Below are positions 14,330-34,083 of a DNA stretch of 48,529 nucleotides, one piece after another. The stretch comes from a virus, in IMG/VR virus record IMGVR_UViG_3300043602_000059, positions 1-48,529 of that record; one strand, 5' to 3'. Made by a program: the position numbers and the translations under genes. Position 1 is the first letter of the stretch. Each line of letters starts with the position of its first letter. The notes below the pieces were generated by a model. The model had not been told where the DNA came from. It did no database searches and was given only the letters and a program-made list of their open reading frames with translations.

Positions 14330-14340
14330 CTAGAGGAAAT

Positions 14341-14375
14341 GGGGGGTGGCTCTGGGAAAGCTGCCCCCCTTTTTT
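14341..14375 (+). terminator. Intrinsic terminator
   Basis: GGGGGGTGGCT (14341-14351) pairs with AGCTGCCCCCC (two G-U pairs) across a 7-base loop, and six T residues follow. It ends the unit that carries the recombination genes. The next gene starts only 17 bases later, so it must depend on read-through or an unseen promoter. Confidence 0.9.
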
Positions 14376-14392
14376 CATGTCTTGGAGAAACC

Positions 14393-15688
14393 ATGAAGAT
14401 AGACTTGACAGCTATCCAGAACACTATCCCAGTGTCGTGGGAGAGTGACAAGGAGCGCGACGAATTCCTTGAATCACTCAAGGAGCAGGGCCAACTCCAC
14501 GCCATTATTGTTCGTCCGCTGAACAATTCTGAGTTCCCTTTTGACCTCGTGACAGGAGCCAAGAGGTTTGAGGCCGCAAAGCTACTCGGCTGGACCGAGC
14601 TGGACGCCGAGGTCAAGGAGCCGAACGACGTCGATGCTAAGATTATGAGGGTTCACGAGAACCTCCATCGTCACAACCTACCGTGGTATGAGGCTGTCAT
14701 ACTGGTGCAACAGCTCCATGAGCTTCGCCAGCAGCAACACGGTAAGAAGGAAGGCGTCGGTCGACCGAAGAAGGATGAGAAGGTGTGGGGTGTTCGGGAG
14801 ACAGCTTCGGAGCTTAGCCTATCAATCGGTGGGGTAAGTGAGGACTTGTCTTTGGCACGCGCTGTGCAATATGACCCCTCATTGAAGAACATCAAGGACC
14901 GCAAAACAGCAATCAAGCTCGTTCGTTCAGCCGCGCGCCGCATGCAGAACGAGACTATGGCGGCGATGAATGACATCGAAATTGGCCTGGATGAAGTCTA
15001 TCTAGGCGACAGCGCGGAGGTGCTCAGCCACTTCCCCGATGAGACGTTCGATGTGTGCATCACCGACCCGCCGTGGTTGAACTTCTTTGACCCTAGCTTG
15101 ACGGTTGACAAGCGGACCTTGCCGGTCTTCGAGCAGCTGTGGCGCGTTCTCAAGACCGACGCTTTCCTATTCGTAATCGTTTCGGTAGATGACTTCGTCT
15201 ACTACGGTGGTTACGACTATCTCAACGATTCGGGGCAGAAGGTCCACCGACTCGGCGCGCTGGAGAAGCTCGGATTCAAGATTGCCAAGACACCTGTCTT
15301 CTGGCAGAAGGAGAATAGCCTCTCTCGTCGCGGCGTCAAATCCTGGGAGTATGACCGTGACTTCGAGTTCGTCCTCATCGCTGCGAAAGGAAATCCAGTC
15401 CTTGCTCGCGTCGGTAATCTCTCGGCGTTTAAGCCGTTTCCGCAGGTTCCTCCGGCGCATCTCATTCACCCCAACGAGAAGCCTCTTGGACTCGTTGCCG
15501 ACCTTCTCGACGATTGCTCTTACAAGGGTTCAACGGTCGTCGACCCGTTCGGAGGTAGTGGTGTGGTTGCGGCTGCCTGCATCATGGGTGAAAGACGATT
15601 CGTCACCATCGAGCGAGACAAGCAGTTCTACGACGGAATCGTAGACCGTTTGGCTAGGGTCAAGGCAAGGAAAGTGGTGTCGGCGTGA
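14393..15688 (+). CDS. ParB-domain/DNA methyltransferase fusion, 431 aa
   Basis: Residues 1-110 form a ParB/Srx-type domain with GQLHAIIVRP, TGAKRFEAAK and HENLHRHNLPWYE. A linker (GVGRPKKDEK) with an HTH-like stretch (TASELSLSIGGVSEDLSLA) follows. Residues 205-425 are a beta-class DNA methyltransferase, with motif IV DPPW (225-228) before the SAM motif DPFGGSG (384-390). DPPW indicates methylation of exocyclic amino groups (N6-adenine or N4-cytosine). Such fusions are common in phages and plasmids and may protect phage DNA from restriction. ATG at 14393 with GGAG upstream. The frame also opens at 14339 over the terminator, which is not coding. Confidence 0.9.
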   Translation: MKIDLTAIQNTIPVSWESDKERDEFLESLKEQGQLHAIIVRPLNNSEFPFDLVTGAKRFEAAKLLGWTELDAEVKEPNDVDAKIMRVHENLHRHNLPWYEAVILVQQLHELRQQQHGKKEGVGRPKKDEKVWGVRETASELSLSIGGVSEDLSLARAVQYDPSLKNIKDRKTAIKLVRSAARRMQNETMAAMNDIEIGLDEVYLGDSAEVLSHFPDETFDVCITDPPWLNFFDPSLTVDKRTLPVFEQLWRVLKTDAFLFVIVSVDDFVYYGGYDYLNDSGQKVHRLGALEKLGFKIAKTPVFWQKENSLSRRGVKSWEYDRDFEFVLIAAKGNPVLARVGNLSAFKPFPQVPPAHLIHPNEKPLGLVADLLDDCSYKGSTVVDPFGGSGVVAAACIMGERRFVTIERDKQFYDGIVDRLARVKARKVVSA

Positions 15689-20103: not shown

Positions 20104-20140
20104 GGGTGGAGGCGCTACTGACTGGCCTCTGCCTCCGCCC
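20104..20140. terminator. Candidate bidirectional hairpin between the converging arms
   Basis: GGGTGGAGGC (20104-20113) pairs with GCCTCCGCCC (20131-20140) with one wobble across a 17-base loop. It lies where both long transcription units meet and overlaps the last codons of the 1203-aa gene. There is no clear T-run on either side, so termination is only a possibility. Confidence 0.35.
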
Positions 20141-23100
20141 TTCGCTTTGCTCTACGCCGTTCCAGAGATTCGCGCTGCTTAAACTTCTTAGCCTCCTCAC
20201 CAAATCCAAGACCAGGCATAGCCCACCGACGTCCCGGTGACTGCGTGAAGGCTGCGAATGGGTCTGAAAGGGTCTTGGTGATGCCCCATTCTGGCAGAGG
20301 TGAGATGCCACCCAAGACTTCGGCATTACCTGTCAGCGATGCCCCGAAAAGGAACGGCAGCGCATATGGACCGGCAAAGGCCGATATCATGGCCATCTTC
20401 TCTTTGTCCTCCACCTTAGAACCAACCATTGCTCCCATGATGATTGCAGCAGCATACACGTCAGGATGCTTCTGCCACCGACTGATGCCCTGTATGAACT
20501 GATTGAACGGCGTCGTTCGGAATGGGACTAGCAGCTTGCCGACTGGGTTATTCAATCCCTTTATCGAAGAGAAAGCATTGGCACCAGTCAACATGAGTTC
20601 CTTTGCTTCCTTCTCACTCAGACCTGCACGCTTGAGCGACTCAATTCCAGCAAAGTCGGCTGCACCCATTATCCTACCGGGGACGTTGAGTTTGTTCACT
20701 CCCTGAACTAATGCTGGGTTGGCGTGTGATTTCCACCCGGTCTTAAAGTCTGAGGTAATGGCCTTGATGTTGGCAAGCACCTTGAGCGGCTTCAATGATC
20801 TACCTTCCAAAGCAGCAGCAAGATGTGCTCCCACGTTACCGGCCAGAGACTTGGGCAGGGCCAGTCCTGAGAGCATCGACGTCATACGCAGCGAGTTCCC
20901 AACTTCGAATGTCTTGTCAAAACCTGCCTTCAGCTGTGCCTTGGATGGGAGACCAAGAGCGCCAGTCTGAGAACCACCTACCTTCTTGAACCAGTCTTGC
21001 ACCTTGGACAGATGCGGATCATCAATCATATCTATATCTGGGTCAGGCAATTCGACTTTCCCCGTATCCAGGTAGTGGTTGATGATGTCTTCCTTCTCCA
21101 TCTTCAGCTTGCCGTAGGCGAGTTCTCGAATCTTGGCAGCGTCCTCGAGGACTTTATCTGAAATCTCTGGAAAGACCTTCTTGATGGTTCGGATAGCACC
21201 CTCATTCGTAGCTCTGATCGCGCGAATTACGTGGAGGGCTTTGACAGCACGAGCATTCTTTGGGTCCACTCTGAGTGCCGGATTCATCTCCTTGTAGACA
21301 CGGACGGCAGCTTGGTCAAGCTCACCCTGTTCACGTGCAGCAGGGACGCCCGCCTCAATCTTCGCCATTAGCTCTTTGTGGAACTTTGTTAACCGAGGAG
21401 ACCTGTCAGATGACTTGTCAACAGCCTTAGCCACCTTTGACGTGTCCACCTTCTCAAACATGTTCTGTATAGCTGTCTTGAGAGTGGTCGATTTGATGCC
21501 AGCAGCCTTGGCGATAGAAAGAAGCTTTGCTGGGTCATTCGTAATATCCTGCACCTCGGATACTGGAAGTGCCCCCAACTTCGCCATTACCAACTTGACA
21601 CGAGCGTTCTTGGTCTTTGGCAGTGTCGTCGCAGGAGCCTCTGCCTTCGGTTCAGGTAATGCACCACGAGCCGCCAATGCAGCATTGAGTTCTGCTGCTG
21701 GATTGGGTGCCGCTGCTGCAACAGGCGCTGCGACTGGGGCTGCTGCTACGGGTGCAGGTGTAGGAGCAGCAGGGACCATCTCAGGCGCTTTGCCACCCCA
21801 GTGCGGCATCTCGATGTCGACGGTATCAGACCCCTCGGGTCCTAGCCCAGGAGCTTCCTTTGTGATCTTGAGCACCTTGAGTCGATACTCGTCAGCGATA
21901 CGATGTGCCTCTTTGAGGGAAACACCCAGCTGTTCAGCAAGACCCTCGTAGTTCGGTGCAATACCACCTCTTTCCCCACGCATCTGACGCTTTGCTCTCC
22001 CAAGTGCAGAGAAGAGGTCAACATGCAGCTTGTCGGGGAAAATAGCCCTCACAGCATCATGCACGCCACGGCCAATCCGCAGTATCCGGTCGGGCGTTGG
22101 CTTGCCGGGCACCTTCGGACGAACGAGCGGCTTGTCCGGCATGACAGCAACACGAGATGCTGCATCCCTGACTGGAGCTACTGGAGTCGGAAGGGCAGGT
22201 GCTGGTGTCGGCGCTGCTGGAGCCATGCGCGTAGTTGCAGGACCAGCATCAATGTTAGTGGGAGCAACTGGAGCAGGCGCAGCGGCAGCAGCTTCGGCTT
22301 GAACTGCTGCAATATCGTCAGGGTGTGACCCAGCTGGAGCACCATCTGAGTTTCGAATTATCTCCGCGTAGGAATGAATCTTGTCAGGGTCATGACCGAG
22401 GTCATCTAACGTAAACTCGCCACGGTCCACGATGAGCTGCATGTCGGCTTCGAGGTCTGGTGCCAATGACTCAATCGGAGGCTTCACCTCGGGGATGTTC
22501 GGAGGCTCAACAGCACCCAATGCAGAGACAGCCCTTGGAGTCGGAGGCGGCGCACCTTCAGCAACTACCGTTCGCCAGAAGTCGCTAGCTGGACGAGAGG
22601 CTCCGGGACCATCCACCGTTGTATTGGGAACCACCGGGTCTTGCAGCTGATGTGCAGCAAGGTCCATGCCCTCAGCACCCGGCTCCTGACGGAACTGCTG
22701 CCAGATACCAGCATCCTGCTCGAAGGGCTGTCCCGCAGAAGGTCCACGAGGACTAACAGGCGGCTGGAGCTGAAGGTCTTGTGCTGGTGTAGCAGCGAAC
22801 GGATCGGCCAGACTGTGCTCGCCTAGAACATCAGGTCCCTGCCCGAGTCCAGCAATGTCAATTCGGCCTCCACCTCCACCTCCGGGTGGTGGAGCGGGAG
22901 CACCAGCAGAGCCAGGCACGTAGTTCGGGTCAGACAGGTCGCCTATGCCTGATGGGCCAGCTTCGAATCGCGCGCCACCCCCAGGTGGAGGTGGAGGAGG
23001 ACCACCAGCTGGGCCAAGGAGACGAGCCGGATCGTCAATAGGCTTCAAGGTGAATGACCCATCGACAACTTCCGGACGCATACTCATAGCGTCCAAGTCA

Positions 23101-23726
23101 CCCTTACCACCCCACACGCCGAGCGCACCAAGACCCATCTGAAGTGCTGCGTTACCGTAGTCTCCCCACGTTGCTTCGTCACCCTTCGACAAAGCATCGG
23201 CCATGTTGATGCCACCACCGCCAAGACCGATAGCGCCTTGAGCCATCTGGCCAGCGCCACCGAGCTTGCCGAGTGTAGTCAGACCAGCCTTTGCTCCACT
23301 ACCAAGGCCTGAGAGTCCAGCGTATCCACCAAGGGTCAGAGCGTTCAGGGTGAGATTGATATCACTGGTCTGGTCGTCGAGCATACTTCCAGCAAACTCT
23401 CCAACCCCTTGCGGCATGGGCACGTTGAAGCCCATAAAAGGCATAGAGAGTGGCTGACCTCCACTCGCCTTATAGGCATCCTTGAATTGGTCGCCCATGA
23501 AGGTGGAGTGAGGCTTGTTTCGAGCTGCCCACCAGTCCTCGACTTCGTCTGGTATATAGCTTCTGGCCCAATTCTTCAGACCACTATTCTCACTATCCCA
23601 TCTCTCACGAGAGCGATAGGAGTCAATTTCGTAGTCTGTAGGGTCACGTTCCTGACCCCAAGGCATGACCCCCGACTCACCAGTCGAAGGGTCTTCCCAA
23701 CGCCACGATTGTCCTGGAGGAGGCAT
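20115..23726 (-). CDS. Large internal virion (ejection) protein, 1203 aa
   Basis: The last and longest gene of the late operon. The N-terminus has WEDPSTGESGVMPWG and a Gly/Ala-rich segment. Residues about 230-560 are Pro/Ala/Gly-rich low complexity (runs of Pro, then repeated APAPVAP and PTPAPA). The rest is mainly helical, with Lys-rich helices and, near the C-terminus, hydrophobic segments (AAIIMGAMVG and ISAFAGPYALPFLFGAS) that could enter a membrane. Size, position after the tail genes and this composition fit the inner-core or ejection proteins of short-tailed phages, which form a DNA channel on infection. A lytic transglycosylase motif was not recognised. Assignment is by context. Confidence 0.65.
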   Translation of the reverse strand: MPPPGQSWRWEDPSTGESGVMPWGQERDPTDYEIDSYRSRERWDSENSGLKNWARSYIPDEVEDWWAARNKPHSTFMGDQFKDAYKASGGQPLSMPFMGFNVPMPQGVGEFAGSMLDDQTSDINLTLNALTLGGYAGLSGLGSGAKAGLTTLGKLGGAGQMAQGAIGLGGGGINMADALSKGDEATWGDYGNAALQMGLGALGVWGGKGDLDAMSMRPEVVDGSFTLKPIDDPARLLGPAGGPPPPPPGGGARFEAGPSGIGDLSDPNYVPGSAGAPAPPPGGGGGGRIDIAGLGQGPDVLGEHSLADPFAATPAQDLQLQPPVSPRGPSAGQPFEQDAGIWQQFRQEPGAEGMDLAAHQLQDPVVPNTTVDGPGASRPASDFWRTVVAEGAPPPTPRAVSALGAVEPPNIPEVKPPIESLAPDLEADMQLIVDRGEFTLDDLGHDPDKIHSYAEIIRNSDGAPAGSHPDDIAAVQAEAAAAAPAPVAPTNIDAGPATTRMAPAAPTPAPALPTPVAPVRDAASRVAVMPDKPLVRPKVPGKPTPDRILRIGRGVHDAVRAIFPDKLHVDLFSALGRAKRQMRGERGGIAPNYEGLAEQLGVSLKEAHRIADEYRLKVLKITKEAPGLGPEGSDTVDIEMPHWGGKAPEMVPAAPTPAPVAAAPVAAPVAAAAPNPAAELNAALAARGALPEPKAEAPATTLPKTKNARVKLVMAKLGALPVSEVQDITNDPAKLLSIAKAAGIKSTTLKTAIQNMFEKVDTSKVAKAVDKSSDRSPRLTKFHKELMAKIEAGVPAAREQGELDQAAVRVYKEMNPALRVDPKNARAVKALHVIRAIRATNEGAIRTIKKVFPEISDKVLEDAAKIRELAYGKLKMEKEDIINHYLDTGKVELPDPDIDMIDDPHLSKVQDWFKKVGGSQTGALGLPSKAQLKAGFDKTFEVGNSLRMTSMLSGLALPKSLAGNVGAHLAAALEGRSLKPLKVLANIKAITSDFKTGWKSHANPALVQGVNKLNVPGRIMGAADFAGIESLKRAGLSEKEAKELMLTGANAFSSIKGLNNPVGKLLVPFRTTPFNQFIQGISRWQKHPDVYAAAIIMGAMVGSKVEDKEKMAMISAFAGPYALPFLFGASLTGNAEVLGGISPLPEWGITKTLSDPFAAFTQSPGRRWAMPGLGFGEEAKKFKQRESLERRRAKRRAEAEASQ

Positions 23727-26333: not shown

Positions 26334-26477
26334 TTACCTAATCGGTAGCGCAGTAACGAGGATGGCCACGATGATGAACAGCACAGCTATCCAGAGTGGC
26401 ACCACGCCTGGCTTCAAAGCGTGCATCAGGAGTGCAGCGAGAGCACAGAGAATGAGGAGAATAGTCACCGTAAACAT
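26334..26477 (-). CDS. Two-helix membrane protein, possible holin, 47 aa
   Basis: ATG at 26477 overlaps the stop of the GNAT-like gene (TGATG), with AAGGAGG upstream. Two hydrophobic helices (VTILLILCALAALLMHAL and VVPLWIAVLFIIVAILV) are joined by a short KPG turn, and a single Arg lies at the end. Small two-helix proteins at this place in late operons are often holins or pinholins, which time lysis. No endolysin is adjacent, so the role stays open. The longer in-frame start at 26519 has no merit. Confidence 0.7.
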   Translation of the reverse strand: MFTVTILLILCALAALLMHALKPGVVPLWIAVLFIIVAILVTALPIR

Positions 26478-26920
26478 CACTCTACCTCCTTGATAAGATG
26501 CTCCCCGAGAACATCCCAAAATCCGTAGTGTTTCCGAAGCACGTCGGCGAAGTCCGGATCCTGAGTGCAGGCATGTATCTGGTCTATCCCTGCACGTTGC
26601 GCGCCCATGATTGCTACGGGCATTATCTCTTTGAAGGCGCGCGCTCGTTCCAGCTTTGACCTGTCATGGTCCATTACCATGTAAGTCTCAGCAAACACCC
26701 TTAGGTTGCCAAAGGCAATGAGTCCCTTGTCATCTTCAACAACGCAGGTGATGATTGACGGTTCCAACTGCGGCAACGAGAACTGATGTGAATGATGCTT
26801 CTTCCACAGCTCGTCAATCTTCGCCAGATCGCTCGGATGGTATCGCCTGACTACCAGTCCACTCTCTGTGCCGAGTTCGGCCCTATCAGCAGGTCTGGTG
26901 TCCGCTTGATTACTTTCCAT
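26477..26920 (-). CDS. GNAT-like acetyltransferase, 147 aa
   Basis: ATG 26920 with GGAG eight bases upstream; the gene overlaps the end of the methyltransferase gene by 70 bases. The sequence follows the GNAT layout: LVVRRYHPSDLAKIDELW, a central strand pair around CVVEDDKGLIAFGNLRV, a helix after LERARAFKEIM and an end with IDQIHACTQDPDFADVLRKHYGF. The usual Q/R-x-x-G-x-G/A loop is not clear, so activity is uncertain. GNAT-like proteins are frequent in phage structural operons. In this cassette it could acetylate the same protein the radical SAM enzyme modifies, but that is inference. Confidence 0.65.
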   Translation of the reverse strand: MESNQADTRPADRAELGTESGLVVRRYHPSDLAKIDELWKKHHSHQFSLPQLEPSIITCVVEDDKGLIAFGNLRVFAETYMVMDHDRSKLERARAFKEIMPVAIMGAQRAGIDQIHACTQDPDFADVLRKHYGFWDVLGEHLIKEVE

Positions 26921-28182
26921 CCTTCCATCTCCCCGTATGAGTAGAAGACCGTCGCCTTTGTCCAAGTTCTGAGGCGCTCCAGCAATTGCTCCTGATTGGG
27001 TGCCTCAATGAACCGCTGCACAGAGATAAAGGCCACATCGTATTTCCGGTCGAAAACACGAGGGTCGAATATGTTCATGCAGCGAACATTTGCAATCTTC
27101 TGGGCCTTCTTAAAGGCTTCGTCGTTCGACTCGATGCCATGCAGCTCAGATGCGATATCCTTGTAAATCTTCAACAGCTCGCCAGTGCCACATCCGAGGT
27201 CGATGATTGACTGGTCTTTGCAGTTCTGTGCTGCTGCAACCACGAGGTTGTGTGCTGCGACCATCGCTTCGAAACTACCAAAACCGTTCAAGGTCCAAGT
27301 ATCCTTATTTAGGAACTTGACCTTGGTTGTGTTGTTCCTGAAGGGGAATTCGTTACCTCTCGCACCTTCATTGGGATACAATGCCCCGTGCTGAAGAATG
27401 GTATTCTTGGTATACGTAGCGTCAGTGCGGCTAATGATGCGGCACACCGGCGTCACTATCTCAGCGATACCATGCAGCGCCGTCCACTTCACAGGCCACT
27501 GGAGAGCCTCACTGAGAGTGCGATACTCCTCAAAGAAGTTCGCCCTGATGAGTTTAGAAGCTCCCTCAACGTAAGTCCTCGTCGCCTCACACTTGAAGCT
27601 GCACGGAAGATGCGACACCCATCGCAGCCCGAGATGGCGTAAAGTGACATTGCAAGCCGGGTCGGGATGGATAGTGATGATACCTTCCCGTGGCTCGCCG
27701 GTATTTAGAGCCTGCGCCCAAGTAGTGTCGACTAGCTCTTTGGCCACCCAGGTATCTTTGAAGAATCGACGACAGCACTCAGGATATCCCAAGAGGACAC
27801 CGATTGCTTCATCGTCATGGACTTTCCAAGCTTCAGTCCACATGCTGGTGACTGCTGCTTTGCAGATGGCAACGCGATAGTCGAACGAAGCACCTTCGAC
27901 GTAAGCCGCAGTAGTGGACGCATAAGAACTAGGCCCCCTCCCCTGCTGTGCTAACACTAATGCCACAAGCCCGTAGGTGCTGGCCAGACGAGATACATCA
28001 GCCATACGTTCCGGAGGGACGACAAGCAATGCTCCAGCCTTGAAACCAGCACCTACGAGGTCAATCTCGATATTCTGCCACGAGCGAGACACCTGCTGAA
28101 AACGAGGTTCCCAGACATGACGTGCCTGTGGTGCCCATTGCAACCGAGTAAAATCTTCTAACCTGAACGAAGCCGTTTCCAT
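26851..28182 (-). CDS. Two-domain protein: Cys-motif domain (GYPECC) plus class I methyltransferase, 443 aa
   Basis: Starts in the stop of the radical SAM gene (TAATG at 28182). Residues 1-260 contain LGYPECCRRF (131-140) and HLPCSFKCEATRTYVEGAS (191-209). A GYPxCC plus PCSxxC pair is remembered from uncharacterised DUF483-type proteins and could bind a metal or Fe-S cluster. Residues 300-430 are a Rossmann methyltransferase, with motif I DLGCGTGE (328-335), acidic end of strand 2 (GIES) and strand 4 YDVAFISVQRF. The enzyme would transfer methyl from SAM. In this operon the likely target is a phage protein, perhaps an Asp or His side chain of the His-X-Asp repeat protein. Target and the function of the Cys domain are inference. 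Confidence 0.78.
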   Translation of the reverse strand: METASFRLEDFTRLQWAPQARHVWEPRFQQVSRSWQNIEIDLVGAGFKAGALLVVPPERMADVSRLASTYGLVALVLAQQGRGPSSYASTTAAYVEGASFDYRVAICKAAVTSMWTEAWKVHDDEAIGVLLGYPECCRRFFKDTWVAKELVDTTWAQALNTGEPREGIITIHPDPACNVTLRHLGLRWVSHLPCSFKCEATRTYVEGASKLIRANFFEEYRTLSEALQWPVKWTALHGIAEIVTPVCRIISRTDATYTKNTILQHGALYPNEGARGNEFPFRNNTTKVKFLNKDTWTLNGFGSFEAMVAAHNLVVAAAQNCKDQSIIDLGCGTGELLKIYKDIASELHGIESNDEAFKKAQKIANVRCMNIFDPRVFDRKYDVAFISVQRFIEAPNQEQLLERLRTWTKATVFYSYGEMEGWKVIKRTPDLLIGPNSAQRVDW

Positions 28183-29375
28183 TACGTCCTCACCTCTGCC
28201 ATTGCCTGAACACGACCGTCCGTATGGTCACCATGCGAGTCCCCATGCGGAGAATCAGCATGAGCTGAGCTTGGTCTGTTCGCGCTCAAAAATTGATGTT
28301 CCCATTTCTCTCGGTCAGGATGTAATGACCCCGGAGTTTCACCGAGGTCCAACATGACATTCTCGAAGTGCTCAAAGATAGCCATGATAACCTGACAATG
28401 CTCGGTCCGATTGCGCCAGTCACCGTCAAGACCAGTGCCAGGACACTCGCCCTTGCACATGAGGAAGAAGCGGCAACCCTTGCAACCACCATACTTGTAG
28501 GGCGTGTTGTAGAGCGCGTGTTGACGCTCAATACCAGCTACGTCAGCCTTGGTCCAATCGACTCCCATCTTATTGGTCCGGCCACAATTTGTCAGTTCAC
28601 CTTGGCCGTTGATACCTTGAACAGCAGGAGTTGTCAATACGTCGCAGGCATGCCAGACACAAACAGTATCCTCGCTTTTGCCTCGGAGCAGAGTGACGTA
28701 TTGGTCGAAGTTCGTAAACTTGAGATGGGTGAACTGCCTTCCGAGGGACATGAGCTGCTTCATACGTTCGATAAGGAGCGGCATATCGACGCGAAGCTTT
28801 GACGCCTTAGCTCCATCAACCTCTAGGTAGTGCAAATTCACCCATCTCAACCCTAGCTTGTCGAGCCGGAGGAACCAATCACAAAGCATCTGGAACGATT
28901 CCTCATCACAGTTACCCTTCCAAAGAGTCGTAATGAGGGATACCCCAATGCCCTCACGCATGAGCCGTTCGATATTTTCAGTAGTCTTTAGGGTAGTTGC
29001 CCTTGTCTCCTCTAAGGTGCCAGATGCACGAGCATCGGAGCACTGTAGTGGCCCATCACAGCTAATACCCACATGGGTAGCACACTGCTTGAATAGGTCA
29101 ATGTGGGCATCGGTAATGAGCGTTGCGTTTGTTTGGACACCAGTATGTCCATGTCGCTTGAATCCATACTCCAGAGCCTGCTTGACTCTAGCGAATGGCG
29201 CGAGGAGTGGCTCACCACCATGAAGGGAGAAAGCTCCTTCCTTGTCCAGAGCGGCGCGCACCTTCTCCCAGTCCCAAGGGACGTTGACGTTCTTCGCGTC
29301 ACGCATGGGATTCTCGTAGCAATACACGCAGCCTATATTGCACGCGACGCCGGAGGGATTCAGTTCGACGCTCAT
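28182..29375 (-). CDS. Radical SAM/SPASM maturase with His-X-Asp tail, 397 aa
   Basis: Radical SAM motif CNIGCVYCY (Cys12, 16, 19) and LHGGEPLL (51-58) define a SAM-cleaving 4Fe-4S enzyme. The C-terminal part carries a full SPASM pattern: Cys244-x14-Gly-x4-Cys264, then Cys298-x2-Cys301-x5-Cys307-x3-Cys311, then Cys327. SPASM enzymes modify ribosomal peptides or proteins. After the fold, residues 372-386 contain four His-X-Asp triplets (HAD, HGD, HGD, HTD), the motif that fills the protein encoded at 29642-30541. ATG at 29375 overlaps the preceding stop (ATGA). A maturase of that protein is the natural hypothesis. A recruiting or pseudo-substrate role for the tail is inference. Confidence 0.93.
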   Translation of the reverse strand: MSVELNPSGVACNIGCVYCYENPMRDAKNVNVPWDWEKVRAALDKEGAFSLHGGEPLLAPFARVKQALEYGFKRHGHTGVQTNATLITDAHIDLFKQCATHVGISCDGPLQCSDARASGTLEETRATTLKTTENIERLMREGIGVSLITTLWKGNCDEESFQMLCDWFLRLDKLGLRWVNLHYLEVDGAKASKLRVDMPLLIERMKQLMSLGRQFTHLKFTNFDQYVTLLRGKSEDTVCVWHACDVLTTPAVQGINGQGELTNCGRTNKMGVDWTKADVAGIERQHALYNTPYKYGGCKGCRFFLMCKGECPGTGLDGDWRNRTEHCQVIMAIFEHFENVMLDLGETPGSLHPDREKWEHQFLSANRPSSAHADSPHGDSHGDHTDGRVQAMAEVRT

Positions 29376-29632
29376 TCCCTTGTAATCTTGACGGTCGATG
29401 TGCCGCCGTTGACTCGAATGAAGCTTGCTGCAACAACTTCACCGGAAGGAAGATATCCTCCGGACCCTGCGGTGACGTTCCTCCCACCACTCATATCCAG
29501 ATTGTTGCTCAAATCGTATGAGGGTGATGTCCCAGCAGAAACATACAAGCGGCCACCCCCAGCTGGAAGTGCTCTGACGAGGTTATCCGCAATAGCATGC
29601 GGAATGTCGTAACTGAGAGTATACGTTGGCAT
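29372..29632 (-). CDS. Small protein in the modification cassette, 86 aa
   Basis: Lies between the His-X-Asp protein and the radical SAM gene and is coupled to the latter (ATGA). The sequence is Gly/Ser-rich and beta-like (RLYVSAGTSPSYDLSNNLDM, then VVAASFIRVNGG). No known family and no His-X-Asp motif. It could be a minor virion protein, an adaptor or a second substrate. Confidence 0.6.
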   Translation of the reverse strand: MPTYTLSYDIPHAIADNLVRALPAGGGRLYVSAGTSPSYDLSNNLDMSGGRNVTAGSGGYLPSGEVVAASFIRVNGGTSTVKITRE

Positions 29633-29641
29633 GTCAATCTC

Positions 29642-30541
29642 CTACTCCACAAACTCGGGTTGCGCTTGACCAGGTGTATCACCGTGGTCGTCGTGTCCTG
29701 CGTCTACGTGTGCCTCGTCGATATGCGCCACGTCGTTAAATGGCGTATCACCATGACCATCCTTATGATCATTGTGAGTTACGTCACTGTGAGCCACATC
29801 CTTGTGTGCCGTATCGTCGTGGTCGTTGTCCGTATGATCAGAATGTGCCCTATCTGAGTGGGCCGTGTCTGAGTGCGGAGTATCACCATGACTGTCCCCG
29901 TGGTTATCCCCATGTAGGTCAGCATGATTAACAACGTCCGAATGACCAGCACCATCATTATGGTCAACGTGGTTAGTGAAATCGTTGTGTTGCGTATCGT
30001 TATGTGGTGCATCTGAGTGAGTATCTACGTGAGTCACGTCGGTATGTGAATCTAAGTGTGAGAGGTCATCATGGTCGTTATCAGTGTGGTCGACGTGAGT
30101 TACATCAGAGTGAGCAACGTCACTATGAGTATTATCAGTATGGTCTTGGTGCGAGAAGTCAGAATGTGCAATGTCCGTATGAACTAAATCACCATGACTT
30201 TCGTCAGTGTGAGTAGCATCGTTGTGGTCAACATGAGCCACATCTGTATGGCCTTGTCGATGTGCCTTATCAGATGCTAACCACGAGAGTCGCTTCTGAT
30301 TATCGACCCAAAGACTGCCTGCAATTCCAGTCGTTGTCTTTATGAAATGCTCGATAAGTCGCCGCTCAGAACCGCCAGCATCGACATACCAGAGATAGTC
30401 TCCCTCGACCCACACTGAGCCAGGGAGACCAGCACTACCCGGCGTAACCTGTGAACCGACATATCTCCACTCCGTGCCATCCTCAGCAACGAAGTGCAGA
30501 TTTGTGGATTCAATCCAAAGACTTCCAGGGACTTTAGCCAT
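29642..30541 (-). CDS. His-X-Asp repeat protein, probable tail fibre or modified virion protein, 299 aa
   Basis: Residues 1-95 hold three copies of a beta unit: PGSLWIESTNLHFV (from 5), PGSVWVEGDYLWYV (from 40) and AGSLWVDNQKRLSWL (from 74). Residues 98-288 contain about 40 His-X-Asp triplets, most often five residues apart as in HSDVAHSDVTHVD, with X mostly Thr, Ser, Val, Asn or Gly. Cys is absent. The C-terminus is short (QAQPEFVE). It follows a fibre gene and precedes a radical SAM enzyme. Two readings: a metal-binding trimeric rod (compare the iron-binding HxH motifs of T4 gp37 and P2 gpV), or a substrate for enzymatic modification. Both may hold. Confidence 0.82.
   Translation of the reverse strand: MAKVPGSLWIESTNLHFVAEDGTEWRYVGSQVTPGSAGLPGSVWVEGDYLWYVDAGGSERRLIEHFIKTTTGIAGSLWVDNQKRLSWLASDKAHRQGHTDVAHVDHNDATHTDESHGDLVHTDIAHSDFSHQDHTDNTHSDVAHSDVTHVDHTDNDHDDLSHLDSHTDVTHVDTHSDAPHNDTQHNDFTNHVDHNDGAGHSDVVNHADLHGDNHGDSHGDTPHSDTAHSDRAHSDHTDNDHDDTAHKDVAHSDVTHNDHKDGHGDTPFNDVAHIDEAHVDAGHDDHGDTPGQAQPEFVE
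29678..30250 (-). repeat. Tandem coding repeat encoding His-X-Asp units
   Basis: The DNA for residues 98-288 of the repeat protein is built from related units of mostly 15 bases (CAC/CAT, any codon, GAC/GAT, two more codons). Codons vary between units, so the protein repeat is older or more conserved than the DNA repeat. Such tracts can change length by recombination. Confidence 0.8.
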
Positions 30542-31005
30542 TAGCTCGTAACGTATTTATCAACGCCGACAGGAATCACGAGACCAGACCGAACGTAGAT
30601 TGTTGACGGTCGATTTGCGTTCGTTCCGATCTTGTTGGCATTGTCAGCTACAAACGAAATGTTACCAACTAATGCTAGACCAGTGATGCCAGTGAGGGAG
30701 CCACCAGTGATATTAACTGCGTTCTCGTTCTGGACTGCCATAGTGCCAAGATTGAGATTGTCCAGAATCCCCTCGGTATCACTTGCACCAGTTCCACCAC
30801 CGGCCACCGAGATTAGCTTATCAACCCACTGCGCTCCATCCCACTCTTGCAGTAAGTTTGTTGTGCGATTGTAACGAATCGAGCCAACAGGTTGATTAGT
30901 TGGCCCAGCCGAGAACATCTGAGCTGCATCGTCCAGACGAGCATCGACCTGCGCAACGAAGTCAACATAAAGGCTCGACAGTGTAGGTAGCGACCAATCA
31001 GCCAT
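30541..31005 (-). CDS. Tail fibre-like protein, 154 aa
   Basis: N-terminal helix (LSSLYVDFVAQVDARLDDAAQM), then a beta region with RYNRTTNLLQEWDGAQWV and VAGGGTGASDTEGILDNL, a motif set common in phage fibre and appendage proteins, then a repetitive beta tail (GGSLTGITGLALVGNISF). It starts in the stop of the coiled-coil gene, and its stop overlaps the His-X-Asp gene start (TAATG at 30541). Confidence 0.75.
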   Translation of the reverse strand: MADWSLPTLSSLYVDFVAQVDARLDDAAQMFSAGPTNQPVGSIRYNRTTNLLQEWDGAQWVDKLISVAGGGTGASDTEGILDNLNLGTMAVQNENAVNITGGSLTGITGLALVGNISFVADNANKIGTNANRPSTIYVRSGLVIPVGVDKYVTS

Positions 31006-31492: not shown

Positions 31493-32590
31493 CTAGGTGG
31501 ACTGATTGACGCCAATCGCAATTTGTCCAATGACGTAATTGGTGTTAGTGGCTGCGGACCACGAAGCTCCATCGAGATGACCAATCTGTATAACCGTTCC
31601 ACTAGTAGAACAGTATGCTATGCCAGACTTTCTCACGTTATTGTTTAGGATACGAATCTGGTTTTCGAAATATCCAGCAGAGGTATATCCAGCAGGTAGA
31701 AGTATTCTTACGTCTGTAGTAGTAGCAGTCAATGTGCTGGTGCCAATGTAGAAGCTCAAAAACAAAGTTCTACCAAGTAGCATATACTTGAAGTATACTT
31801 GGTCAGCAGCTTCTACAGTCCACGCTCCAGCAGCAGCAGAAAAATTTGCTGCGTTGAATGGGATATCAATCCATTCACCAATTGCAGCTCCACGATTTCT
31901 TTCGGTAATCGTCCCAGAGAAAATTGAATCTCCAGCACTGCCAATAGTTAGCCTGACTAAGTTTTGTGTCCTGAAAATGATTGGTGCTGCACTGTATGAG
32001 CAGAAGTTAATTCCCCCAACACCTTGAGTGAAAAGATTGAATCCGTCCGCGACGAAAGCGGGATTTGTATTTGTGCTAGACGTGATAACGATGTGTGCTC
32101 TGTAATTGCCTACGTTGTTTCTGAAGTTGATACCGGCGTTGGCAGTCACTCCAGCATTGATGTTGGCAACGCTAATGAAGAAGTTAGTGTTAGTGTCACC
32201 AGAGAAAACGTGATCACCAGCCCCTATAGCATTGACACTCAAGACTCCACTTCTGCTTACAGTCAGAAGATTGACTGGAGTCGCATAGGCGTCGTCGAGT
32301 GTTCGGATACTGAGGGTTCCAGCGTTGACACCAATATCCCAATTCTTGAGATTAGCAACTGCATCAGTCTCGTTGAATCGAAGAACTGGAGCGACGTTGG
32401 ATATAGTGTTGATTCCAGTGAAGATATTATCGCCACCACCTGAAGGCAAACCAGCAGGCAGACGAGCGGGGTCAATGGTCCCCTCGGTGAGGATGCTCGC
32501 ATTGAGTGGTAGTGGATTGAAGGTGACGCCATCTGTCGAGTATTCGAAGATGTGCGTCCCTACGTTCCATTTCATCCAGCGAGTTGCCAT
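31493..32590 (-). CDS. Tail fibre protein, 365 aa
   Basis: Begins with a fibre-type start (RWMKWNVGTHIFEYSTDGVTF). The centre is a beta-helix-like tract with repeated Gly-Asp-X-X-Phe-Ser-Gly steps (GDHVFSGDT, GDSIFSGTI). The C-terminal domain (from about residue 240, GEWIDIPFNAANFSA) looks like a globular receptor-binding head. DNA in this gene is more AT-rich than in the head genes, as is usual for exchanged host-range modules. Coupled to the gene before it by TAATG (32590). Confidence 0.78.
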   Translation of the reverse strand: MATRWMKWNVGTHIFEYSTDGVTFNPLPLNASILTEGTIDPARLPAGLPSGGGDNIFTGINTISNVAPVLRFNETDAVANLKNWDIGVNAGTLSIRTLDDAYATPVNLLTVSRSGVLSVNAIGAGDHVFSGDTNTNFFISVANINAGVTANAGINFRNNVGNYRAHIVITSSTNTNPAFVADGFNLFTQGVGGINFCSYSAAPIIFRTQNLVRLTIGSAGDSIFSGTITERNRGAAIGEWIDIPFNAANFSAAAGAWTVEAADQVYFKYMLLGRTLFLSFYIGTSTLTATTTDVRILLPAGYTSAGYFENQIRILNNNVRKSGIAYCSTSGTVIQIGHLDGASWSAATNTNYVIGQIAIGVNQST

Positions 32591-34083
32591 TAGACTATTC
32601 CTCGAGCTTTCCAGCTACAGACTGCGTTGACTCGTGTCCCCGTGCTATCGTAGACCAGCACCTTAAACTCTGTGGGGTTCGGCACGTCTATGAACTCATA
32701 GATGGCTTGCAAAGGTTCTGGTTGCTTCGTTGGAGTAACGGTTATAGAGTCAACATCTTTGAAGTCCTTGTTGAACACAACCTGAGTTCCGTTCAGGTCC
32801 GCTGCCAAGGCTGTTACGAATCCCGAATCGAGCTCTTTCTTAACGTCGAGAGAAATCGTCAAGTCAGAGAAAAGTGCTAGAGCCTTCGTGGTGCTCGACG
32901 TAAAGTTGAAAGTCAGTCGTGCATATCGGAAGCTCGAAATGAAAACTGAGTTACCAATTATTGGAGGGTCCCATGTGATACCGTCCATAGAAGTTTCGAT
33001 AGACAATACAACACTGACCACCCCAAGATTCGTCAGTTGCTGAAGTAGCCAGCTGACGTTCATAATGACGTTATCGAACACGCCTCCGTAATCTAACTCC
33101 TCCCGATAGAGTGCTGTCATAGCACCCGGCTGGATGTAAATCGGGAATCCAGCGTTTACTTGGTCTGAGGGTTGGTCCCATGAGTCTTCAGTGAAATGCG
33201 TGGTCCAGGTATCGTCCTCATCAACACAGACAAGGAGCTTACCAGTGTTTCCAGCGAACCAGACATACTCCTCAGTAGCCCATCCTTGCGTGTCCGTGTA
33301 GTCCCAGCCAAGTTCAGGCTCACCGTAGATTAGAGCATTAACTCGATAACCTGCGAGTAGTGAGCGACGGATATCAATCAGCTCGAAGTCTGGTGGCTGT
33401 CTAACATCGACGCTGATCGTTGTCCTCGGACTCCGATTGCCTGCAATGTCTACAGCTTCTACGCCATACGTAAACGTCCCCGCTGCAGCCTCAAACCAGA
33501 CAAAGAACTCCCCTGCAATAGCACCGATTGATTGTCCGTTACGGAAGATGTCGTAGTGATTGATTCTCCAAGTCGAGTCTGGTCGGCTGTAGCGTAGAAG
33601 AACGTTGTTGTCGATCACCTGCGCTGTCATCATCGGCGAAGGGATTGAGGGAATCGTGATGGCAATCAGCATCATTGCTGACGAATAAGCCCCCAGTCCA
33701 TTCCGCGACTTGACAAGATACGTATGATTACCCACCAGAATCGGGTCGAGTCTAACTTCCTGTTGCGTCGTCGAGGCCACGAAAAACGCAGTATCCCAAA
33801 CCAGTCCCTTACGAACCTCATACGACGAAGCATTTGTAGCACCTGCCCAGAAGATTCTCAGGACTGACTTCTGGAGAATTTCGTAACCGATGGATGTAGG
33901 AGCTGTCGGAATAGCTCCAATCGTCCCCTCTGTGTCAGTGATGGTCTTGACAATCGGGTCGAGTTCAGCCTGTAGCTCACCGACTGCTACGACGAATGCC
34001 TGCAATATCTGATACAACTTTGGATCAGTATGCTGATAACCTTCAACCAGCGAGGCGAACGTAGTGATACGCGTCATAGCCAT
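32590..34083 (-). CDS. Tail protein with fibronectin-type repeats, 497 aa
   Basis: Helical N-terminus (ASLVEGYQHTDPKLYQILQAF) followed by at least two FN3-like modules: one with LRIFWAGATNASSYEVRKG and one with NVLLRYSRPDSTWRINHYDIFRNG. A jelly-roll-like C-terminal half follows. FN3 modules in phage tails bind surface sugars or space domains. It lies between the hub and the fibres, so it is probably the fibre-connecting part. TAATG overlaps on both sides. Confidence 0.75.
   Translation of the reverse strand: MAMTRITTFASLVEGYQHTDPKLYQILQAFVVAVGELQAELDPIVKTITDTEGTIGAIPTAPTSIGYEILQKSVLRIFWAGATNASSYEVRKGLVWDTAFFVASTTQQEVRLDPILVGNHTYLVKSRNGLGAYSSAMMLIAITIPSIPSPMMTAQVIDNNVLLRYSRPDSTWRINHYDIFRNGQSIGAIAGEFFVWFEAAAGTFTYGVEAVDIAGNRSPRTTISVDVRQPPDFELIDIRRSLLAGYRVNALIYGEPELGWDYTDTQGWATEEYVWFAGNTGKLLVCVDEDDTWTTHFTEDSWDQPSDQVNAGFPIYIQPGAMTALYREELDYGGVFDNVIMNVSWLLQQLTNLGVVSVVLSIETSMDGITWDPPIIGNSVFISSFRYARLTFNFTSSTTKALALFSDLTISLDVKKELDSGFVTALAADLNGTQVVFNKDFKDVDSITVTPTKQPEPLQAIYEFIDVPNPTEFKVLVYDSTGTRVNAVCSWKARGIV

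Follow-up and report, generated by a model that had tools for sequence, protein, structure and literature searches.

The 48,529-nucleotide virus record IMGVR_UViG_3300043602_000059, called the window in its whole length, encodes on its minus strand a 299-residue protein with a long array of His-X-Asp (HxD) triplets and, in the same gene cassette, a radical S-adenosylmethionine (SAM) enzyme of the SPASM type. Both belong to a phage family whose tail proteins contain dozens of aromatic-X-Asp/Asn triplets, for the most part HxD, and in which the gene for a radical SAM enzyme of the type that closes such triplets into rings is nearly always close at hand, suggesting that parts of the tails are covalently stitched. 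We consider it likely that the tail protein is crosslinked by the enzyme between residues i and i+2 and so becomes a stapled rod. It also seems fairly probable that a widespread class of phages and some bacteria and archaea employ a new radical SAM/SPASM-DUF483 family to staple entire domains of structural proteins through dozens of consecutive three-residue cyclophanes, which would be the first covalent modification of a virion by a radical enzyme. Radical SAM-mediated crosslinking has been described for small secreted peptides; the apparent substrate in this case is a virus tail protein with about 40 sites per chain. Nothing relevant on radical SAM modification of phage tails was found in the open-access literature, subscription papers not being covered.

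The array protein (29642..30541, minus strand), the substrate candidate of the tail module, consists of an N-terminal domain with about three PGSxWxEGxxLHYxDxxG repeats (30272..30541, minus strand) and the array proper (29678..30250, minus strand), which contains 41 HxD triplets, one FTN and one FND. A preliminary description of this DNA had claimed about 40 triplets in 190 residues, and the count agrees: all 41 His within residues 98-288 (191 residues) are followed by Asp at +2, as compared to 10.0 ± 2.5 triplets, and never more than 19, in 2000 composition-preserving shuffles. The array has three Phe, and two of them belong to FTN and FND. Since codons in the whole array protein are mixed about 1:1 (CAC/CAT 22/22 for His, GAT/GAC 27/25 for Asp) and 99.5% of the 12-mers in the array DNA are unique, the pattern is maintained at the protein level. 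An origin of the array as simple DNA repeat was rejected for the same two reasons and because simple-repeat arrays elsewhere lack the enzyme. In comparison with three close relatives the His and Asp positions are 91-99% identical, versus 42-58% for the other array positions and 65-73% for the N-terminal domain. This domain is about 40% identical to array proteins of the phages phiMa and Cumys, its motif also precedes the arrays of distant phages and of loci L206, L207 and L210, and it is possibly an assembly or recognition module. Small array proteins exist in Acidobacteria (L197, L199). In other phages arrays form part of large tail proteins, for which reason a role in the virion is likely: one array lies inside a protein resembling the central tail fibre protein J (L010, match 2.7e-47), and another follows a collagen-like tail fibre with matches to tail-fibre families (L043).

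How tightly are array and enzyme linked? An enzyme-first search yielded 69 viral loci, 63 of them testable (array seen or at least 3 kb of upstream sequence available), and 61 of these 63 hold an array in the fetched stretch. An array-first scan for a DNA pattern of four HxD units, blind to the enzyme, returned 119 viral loci, of which 51 have a reading frame that encodes an array; these 51 were divided by their 5-mer diversity using a cut set after the values had been seen, albeit no value fell between 0.37 and 0.48. The enzyme is encoded in the same record for 35 of 39 diverse, genuine arrays versus none of the 12 simple tandem repeats that serve as controls. The four arrays without enzyme are found in one 10-kb fragment and three fragments of 36-78 kb, and a 105-kb relative of the latter three has the enzyme about 45 kb from the array. 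Array and enzyme are again found together in Thermus phages, in many phage lineages from metagenomes, and in bacterial and archaeal genomes. The preliminary description had proposed a phage system akin to those for ribosomally synthesized and post-translationally modified peptides (RiPPs), acting on the HxD units of a tail protein, and had suggested a co-occurrence check; the outcome, HxD arrays being mostly enzyme-linked, supports the pairing, and the modification itself is what we infer from it. It could be imagined that a low-complexity tail protein merely happens to neighbor an unrelated accessory gene, and operon proximity in a single genome would be insufficient to exclude chance; counts of 35/39 against 0/12 over varied genome contexts, bacteria and an archaeal metagenome-assembled genome (MAG) contradict coincidence and make it hardly credible.

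Across 86 non-redundant arrays Asp or Asn occupies the +2 position for 2846 of 2936 His (97%), 174 of 308 Phe (56%), 69 of 141 Trp (49%) and 173 of 455 Tyr (38%), and for 88 of 1788 Leu, Ile, Val and Met (5%); Ser follows at +2 for 5 of the 2936 His. When residues outside the Hx[DN] pairs were shuffled, taking no account of sequence kinship, [FYW]x[DN] was found 84 ± 8 times versus 416 times in the actual arrays. Moreover, a comparison of related arrays in 20 disjoint pairs shows that His is retained at 1000 of 1023 homologous sites, that 11 of the 14 residues that replace His while Asp or Asn stays are Phe or Tyr, and that 29 of the 38 substitutions at +2 exchange Asp and Asn, the middle residue being just 62% identical. 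W-x-N, W-x-D and Y-x-D dominate the arrays of the archaeal MAG L207 and of L210, and the array of L047 is rich in F-x-N. Judged from these sequences the true motif is aromatic-X-[D/N]. The side chain of Phe is incapable of metal ligation, Trp is very rarely a ligand, and both are two to three base changes away from His; as Phe and Trp nevertheless replace His, the motif seems to reflect a chemical requirement placed on the ring. These observations bear on the proposal that the array is a metal-binding rod in which HxD units coordinate Zn, Fe or Ca, and that the radical SAM gene has a different task. Both His and Asp bind metals well, and a parallel exists in the HxH iron sites of phage tail tips, iron-binding HxH domains being proposed for a phage tail fibre (PMC11705849). 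Nevertheless, a metal rod is improbable given the near-exclusive co-occurrence with an enzyme that itself has an HxD tail (see below), the occupation of the His place in register by Phe, Trp and Tyr with Asp or Asn kept, where conservation of ligands would be expected, and H-x-K repeats in a Fulvivirga relative. Unmodified triplets could possibly contribute some metal binding. The relative in question, Fulvivirga marina (Bacteroidota; L202, 4832-7972), encodes upstream of its radical SAM gene a large protein that ends in PHLKHIKAPHIKHIKAPHIKHVKLPHVK, and its H-x-K repeats suggest that the acceptor residue varies between clades.

The aromatic-X-[D/N] motif matches the substrate rule of the three-residue cyclophane (triceptide) synthases, which bond an aromatic ring at position i, supplied by Trp, Phe, Tyr or His, to Cβ of residue i+2; published acceptors at i+2 are Asn, Asp, Arg, Ser and Ala (PMC11002830). 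The window enzyme (28182..29375, minus strand), a predicted three-residue crosslinking maturase, matches Pfam Radical_SAM (PF04055, 1.5e-11), as do all 40 members of a family alignment that reaches down to 29% identity to it. The complete cysteine pattern noted earlier was confirmed, with C12, C16 and C19 as the CxxxCxxC motif of radical SAM enzymes and a SPASM spacing of G259-x4-C264, C298-x2-C301-x5-C307-x3-C311 and C327; G259 and these nine cysteines, together with C239 and C244, are unchanged in the 40 rows. The SPASM assignment rests on this spacing, as the Pfam SPASM model gave no match at an E value of 0.001. The closest curated NCBIfam models are mostly peptide maturases, several of them cyclophane-forming (AmcB, YhhB, GrrM/OscB, FxsB, XyeB), and the AmcB, YhhB, GrrM/OscB and FxsB models each match all 40 members. 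By these profile comparisons the enzyme is related to the cyclophane maturases, distantly, yet forms a separate family outside the named subfamilies.

The C-terminus of the window enzyme itself carries HxD units, HADSPHGDSHGDHTD (residues 372-386; 28218..28262, minus strand), which the preliminary description had overlooked. At least two Hx[DN] stand within the last 110 residues in 57 of the family's 71 viral reading frames, and the tail is present also in divergent enzymes with otherwise dissimilar C-terminal regions. Such a tail may serve in docking or self-modification. The AlphaFold 2 model of the enzyme has a confident core (mean predicted local distance difference test score 88.9) and is uninformative on docking or self-modification because the HxD tail is left disordered (residues 368-397). 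In a Foldseek search with this model the best matches were ChlB (9gm3), crystallized together with its precursor leader, and the anaerobic sulfatase maturase (4k38); these closest solved structures share 17-18% identity in the structural alignment and act on other substrates. Membership in the anaerobic sulfatase maturases was rejected (TIGR03942, 61 bits versus a cut-off of 349). Nearness in fold and sequence to this maturase nonetheless leaves room for a different change on the array, be it epimerization, β-hydroxylation, crosslinks between adjacent triplets or between chains, or side-chain oxidation as in sulfatase maturation, and the link to the substrate is much firmer than that to the reaction. 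Albeit, a fixed i/i+2 rule with interchangeable His, Phe, Tyr and Trp fits a ring-to-Cβ crosslink and less obviously the other changes, which we regard as unlikely. In a quickly built enzyme tree, whose deep branching order is uncertain, cellular enzymes form one group amid phage branches (SH-aLRT support 96) and owners of Trp-rich arrays branch deeply. Two family radical SAM genes lie near each other in L119 (10391-13315), and also in L062 (8001-13542), where two DUF483 genes accompany them and a gene for an array protein follows farther downstream.

How would a stapled tail come about? The substrate would be a tail protein with a long aromatic-X-Asp/Asn array, in the window 41 HxD plus FTN and FND. 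The radical SAM/SPASM enzyme, assisted by a DUF483 protein, would abstract a hydrogen from the β carbon of Asp or Asn at i+2, and this carbon would become bonded to the ring of His, Phe, Tyr or Trp at i. Each triplet would yield one three-residue cyclophane with a loss of 2 Da, up to about 87 Da in the window array, and the array would thereby stiffen into a stapled rod within the tail, with the fused methyltransferase probably tailoring the product further in the window lineage. Several points weigh against such a mechanism. Sequence kinship inflates the co-occurrence counts, in which records are non-independent events and relatives were retrieved with patterns derived from the same family. 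Furthermore, the exact chemistry is not transferable from the NCBIfam models, since scores are far under the curated cut-offs: the best score of the window enzyme is 74 bits versus 425 for AmcB, and none of the cut-offs of AmcB, YhhB, GrrM, FxsB and XyeB is reached. A His-to-Asp crosslink is absent from the characterized cases compared. In addition, no array was found within the 8 kb examined around the enzyme in Bradyrhizobium (L203, L204), Lysobacterales (L205), Tahibacter (L208) and an alphaproteobacterium (L212), and the enzymes of such cellular relatives may have other substrates.

Wherever a locus is long enough to judge, the DUF483 gene nearly always lies directly downstream of the enzyme or close by; several bacteria have DUF483 joined to the enzyme, and many phages have it joined to a methyltransferase. 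The core module consists of array, radical SAM enzyme and DUF483, and the methyltransferase is optional. In the window the protein described earlier as Cys-motif/methyltransferase (26851..28182, minus strand) does contain a SAM methyltransferase, and the Cys-motif part, GYPxCC ... CxxxC, is DUF483. DUF483 keeps Cys136, Cys137, Cys198 and usually Cys194, which could form a metal or Fe-S site. The methyltransferase domain has its best sequence and fold match in BpumL and is closest to BpumL/BamL, the RiPP methyltransferases of plantazolicin, although domains of this sort are generic. All 50 matches listed in a fold search with the DUF483-methyltransferase model are of methyltransferase size and kind. 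The five-gene system proposed earlier is accordingly reduced to its core, as the remaining two genes are lineage-specific. The 86-residue protein (29372..29632, minus strand) is confined to the closest relatives (L006-L009). The small protein labeled GNAT-like (26477..26965, minus strand; likely ATG start at 26920) occurs in one lineage, sometimes detached and 2 kb from DUF483, and the label itself could not be confirmed, no sequence match being found in Pfam, PHROG, NCBIfam or the PDB.

The same module is present in the Thermus phages Cumys, phiMa and phiLo, with an array protein (Cumys_13, phiMa_29), a radical SAM enzyme of 43-47% identity and DUF483, but unlike in the window phage without methyltransferase fusion. 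Cumys_13 and phiMa_29 contain 53-54 HxD triplets. A 2024 paper on new Thermus phages noted a module of radical SAM enzyme, DUF483 and a protein of unknown function and guessed at DNA modification; its account of the module, in the part available, does not describe the HxD repeat (PMC11437467). Modification of DNA or tRNA by the radical SAM-DUF483 pair would fit the neighborhood of homologs in cyanobacteria, which according to the same paper adjoin deazapurine DNA genes (PMC11437467), and the array-less cyanobacterial locus L283. Since the module lies in the tail region with the array adjoining, since the closest curated enzyme relatives are mostly peptide maturases and since PHQD lies close to the end of even the cyanobacterial enzyme, this option is very improbable, and for the Thermus phages the data favor the neighboring array protein over DNA as the target of modification. 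In L283 (8326-12050) enzyme and DUF483 are encoded with no array nearby, the enzyme ending PHQDTFAVY and the adjacent protein VFRDSSL. In phiLo (L004) the proteins phiLo_136 and phiLo_137, annotated as hypothetical, are proteins of very large size with HxD arrays, encoded on the minus strand at about 12-17 kb of the locus.

Among known systems the triceptide maturases XncB, OscB/GrrM, MscB, YhhB, HaaB and YxdB share the SPASM enzyme, the aromatic-X-X3 rule and the i/i+2 spacing; at X3 OscB uses Asn and Asp, YxdB Asp, and YhhB accepts Tyr and His (PMC11002830). The present family differs by scores far under the cut-offs of these enzymes, a large structural substrate with dozens of triplets, the DUF483 partner, the substrate-like enzyme tail and its occurrence mostly in phages. 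The preliminary description had compared the window with the His-Xaa-Ser system (HxsA/HxsB/HxsC/HxsD), and the likeness stands insofar as a radical SAM maturase is paired with repeated His-X-polar triplets; the third residue is Asp or Asn, position 1 exchanges among aromatics, and the nearest chemistry is that of cyclophane synthases of the FxsB, GrrM/OscB and YhhB kind. Membership was rejected, as HxsB scores 23.4 bits versus a cut-off of 370 and Ser hardly ever follows His at +2.

Phylum scans found the enzyme family in one genome each among 189 around Nannocystis and 292 around Roseofilum, and it is therefore rare in cells. In L196, L200, L198 and L211 large bacterial proteins encoded beside the enzyme, with laminin-G, crystallin or no known domains, finish with a short run of [HFY]x[DN] units and are possibly a cellular version of the system; those with laminin-G or crystallin domains lie upstream of the enzyme.

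The presence of the module in the isolated phages phiMa, Cumys and phiLo, which grow on the laboratory host Thermus thermophilus HB8, makes the idea directly testable. If true, tail stapling would explain what DUF483 and the published radical SAM module do, add a way to harden viral fibers and a novel type of protein rod held by crosslinks, and offer a promiscuous, repetitive crosslinking enzyme usable for protein materials.

The window is a single virus record with genes for terminase, DNA polymerase, primase, helicase and tail proteins. The cassette lies downstream of the tail genes in the order array, 86-residue protein, radical SAM enzyme, DUF483-methyltransferase and small protein, and all three stop/start overlaps reported earlier are present in the sequence (ATGA at 29375-29372, TAATG at 28184-28180, TGATG at 26479-26475). 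In classical RiPPs a protease removes the leader from a short precursor and the product is exported; the array protein has 299 residues and an N-terminal domain, and no protease or transporter was recognized in the cassette in a search that was not exhaustive. Outside the module, the neighboring gene (30541..31005, minus strand) has weak tail-spike and tail-fibre matches that set the array in the tail region, and a gene upstream of the cassette (32590-34083) matches the tail protein family phrog_1727 (3.9e-14). At the other end a hydrophobic protein of 47 residues (26334-26477), holin-like by eye, overlaps the cassette via the TGATG. Elsewhere the window encodes a DNA methyltransferase fused to a ParB-like domain (14339-15688, PHROG matches) and a 1203-residue protein rich in proline and alanine (20115-23726), which has no PHROG match and is perhaps a virion or ejection protein.

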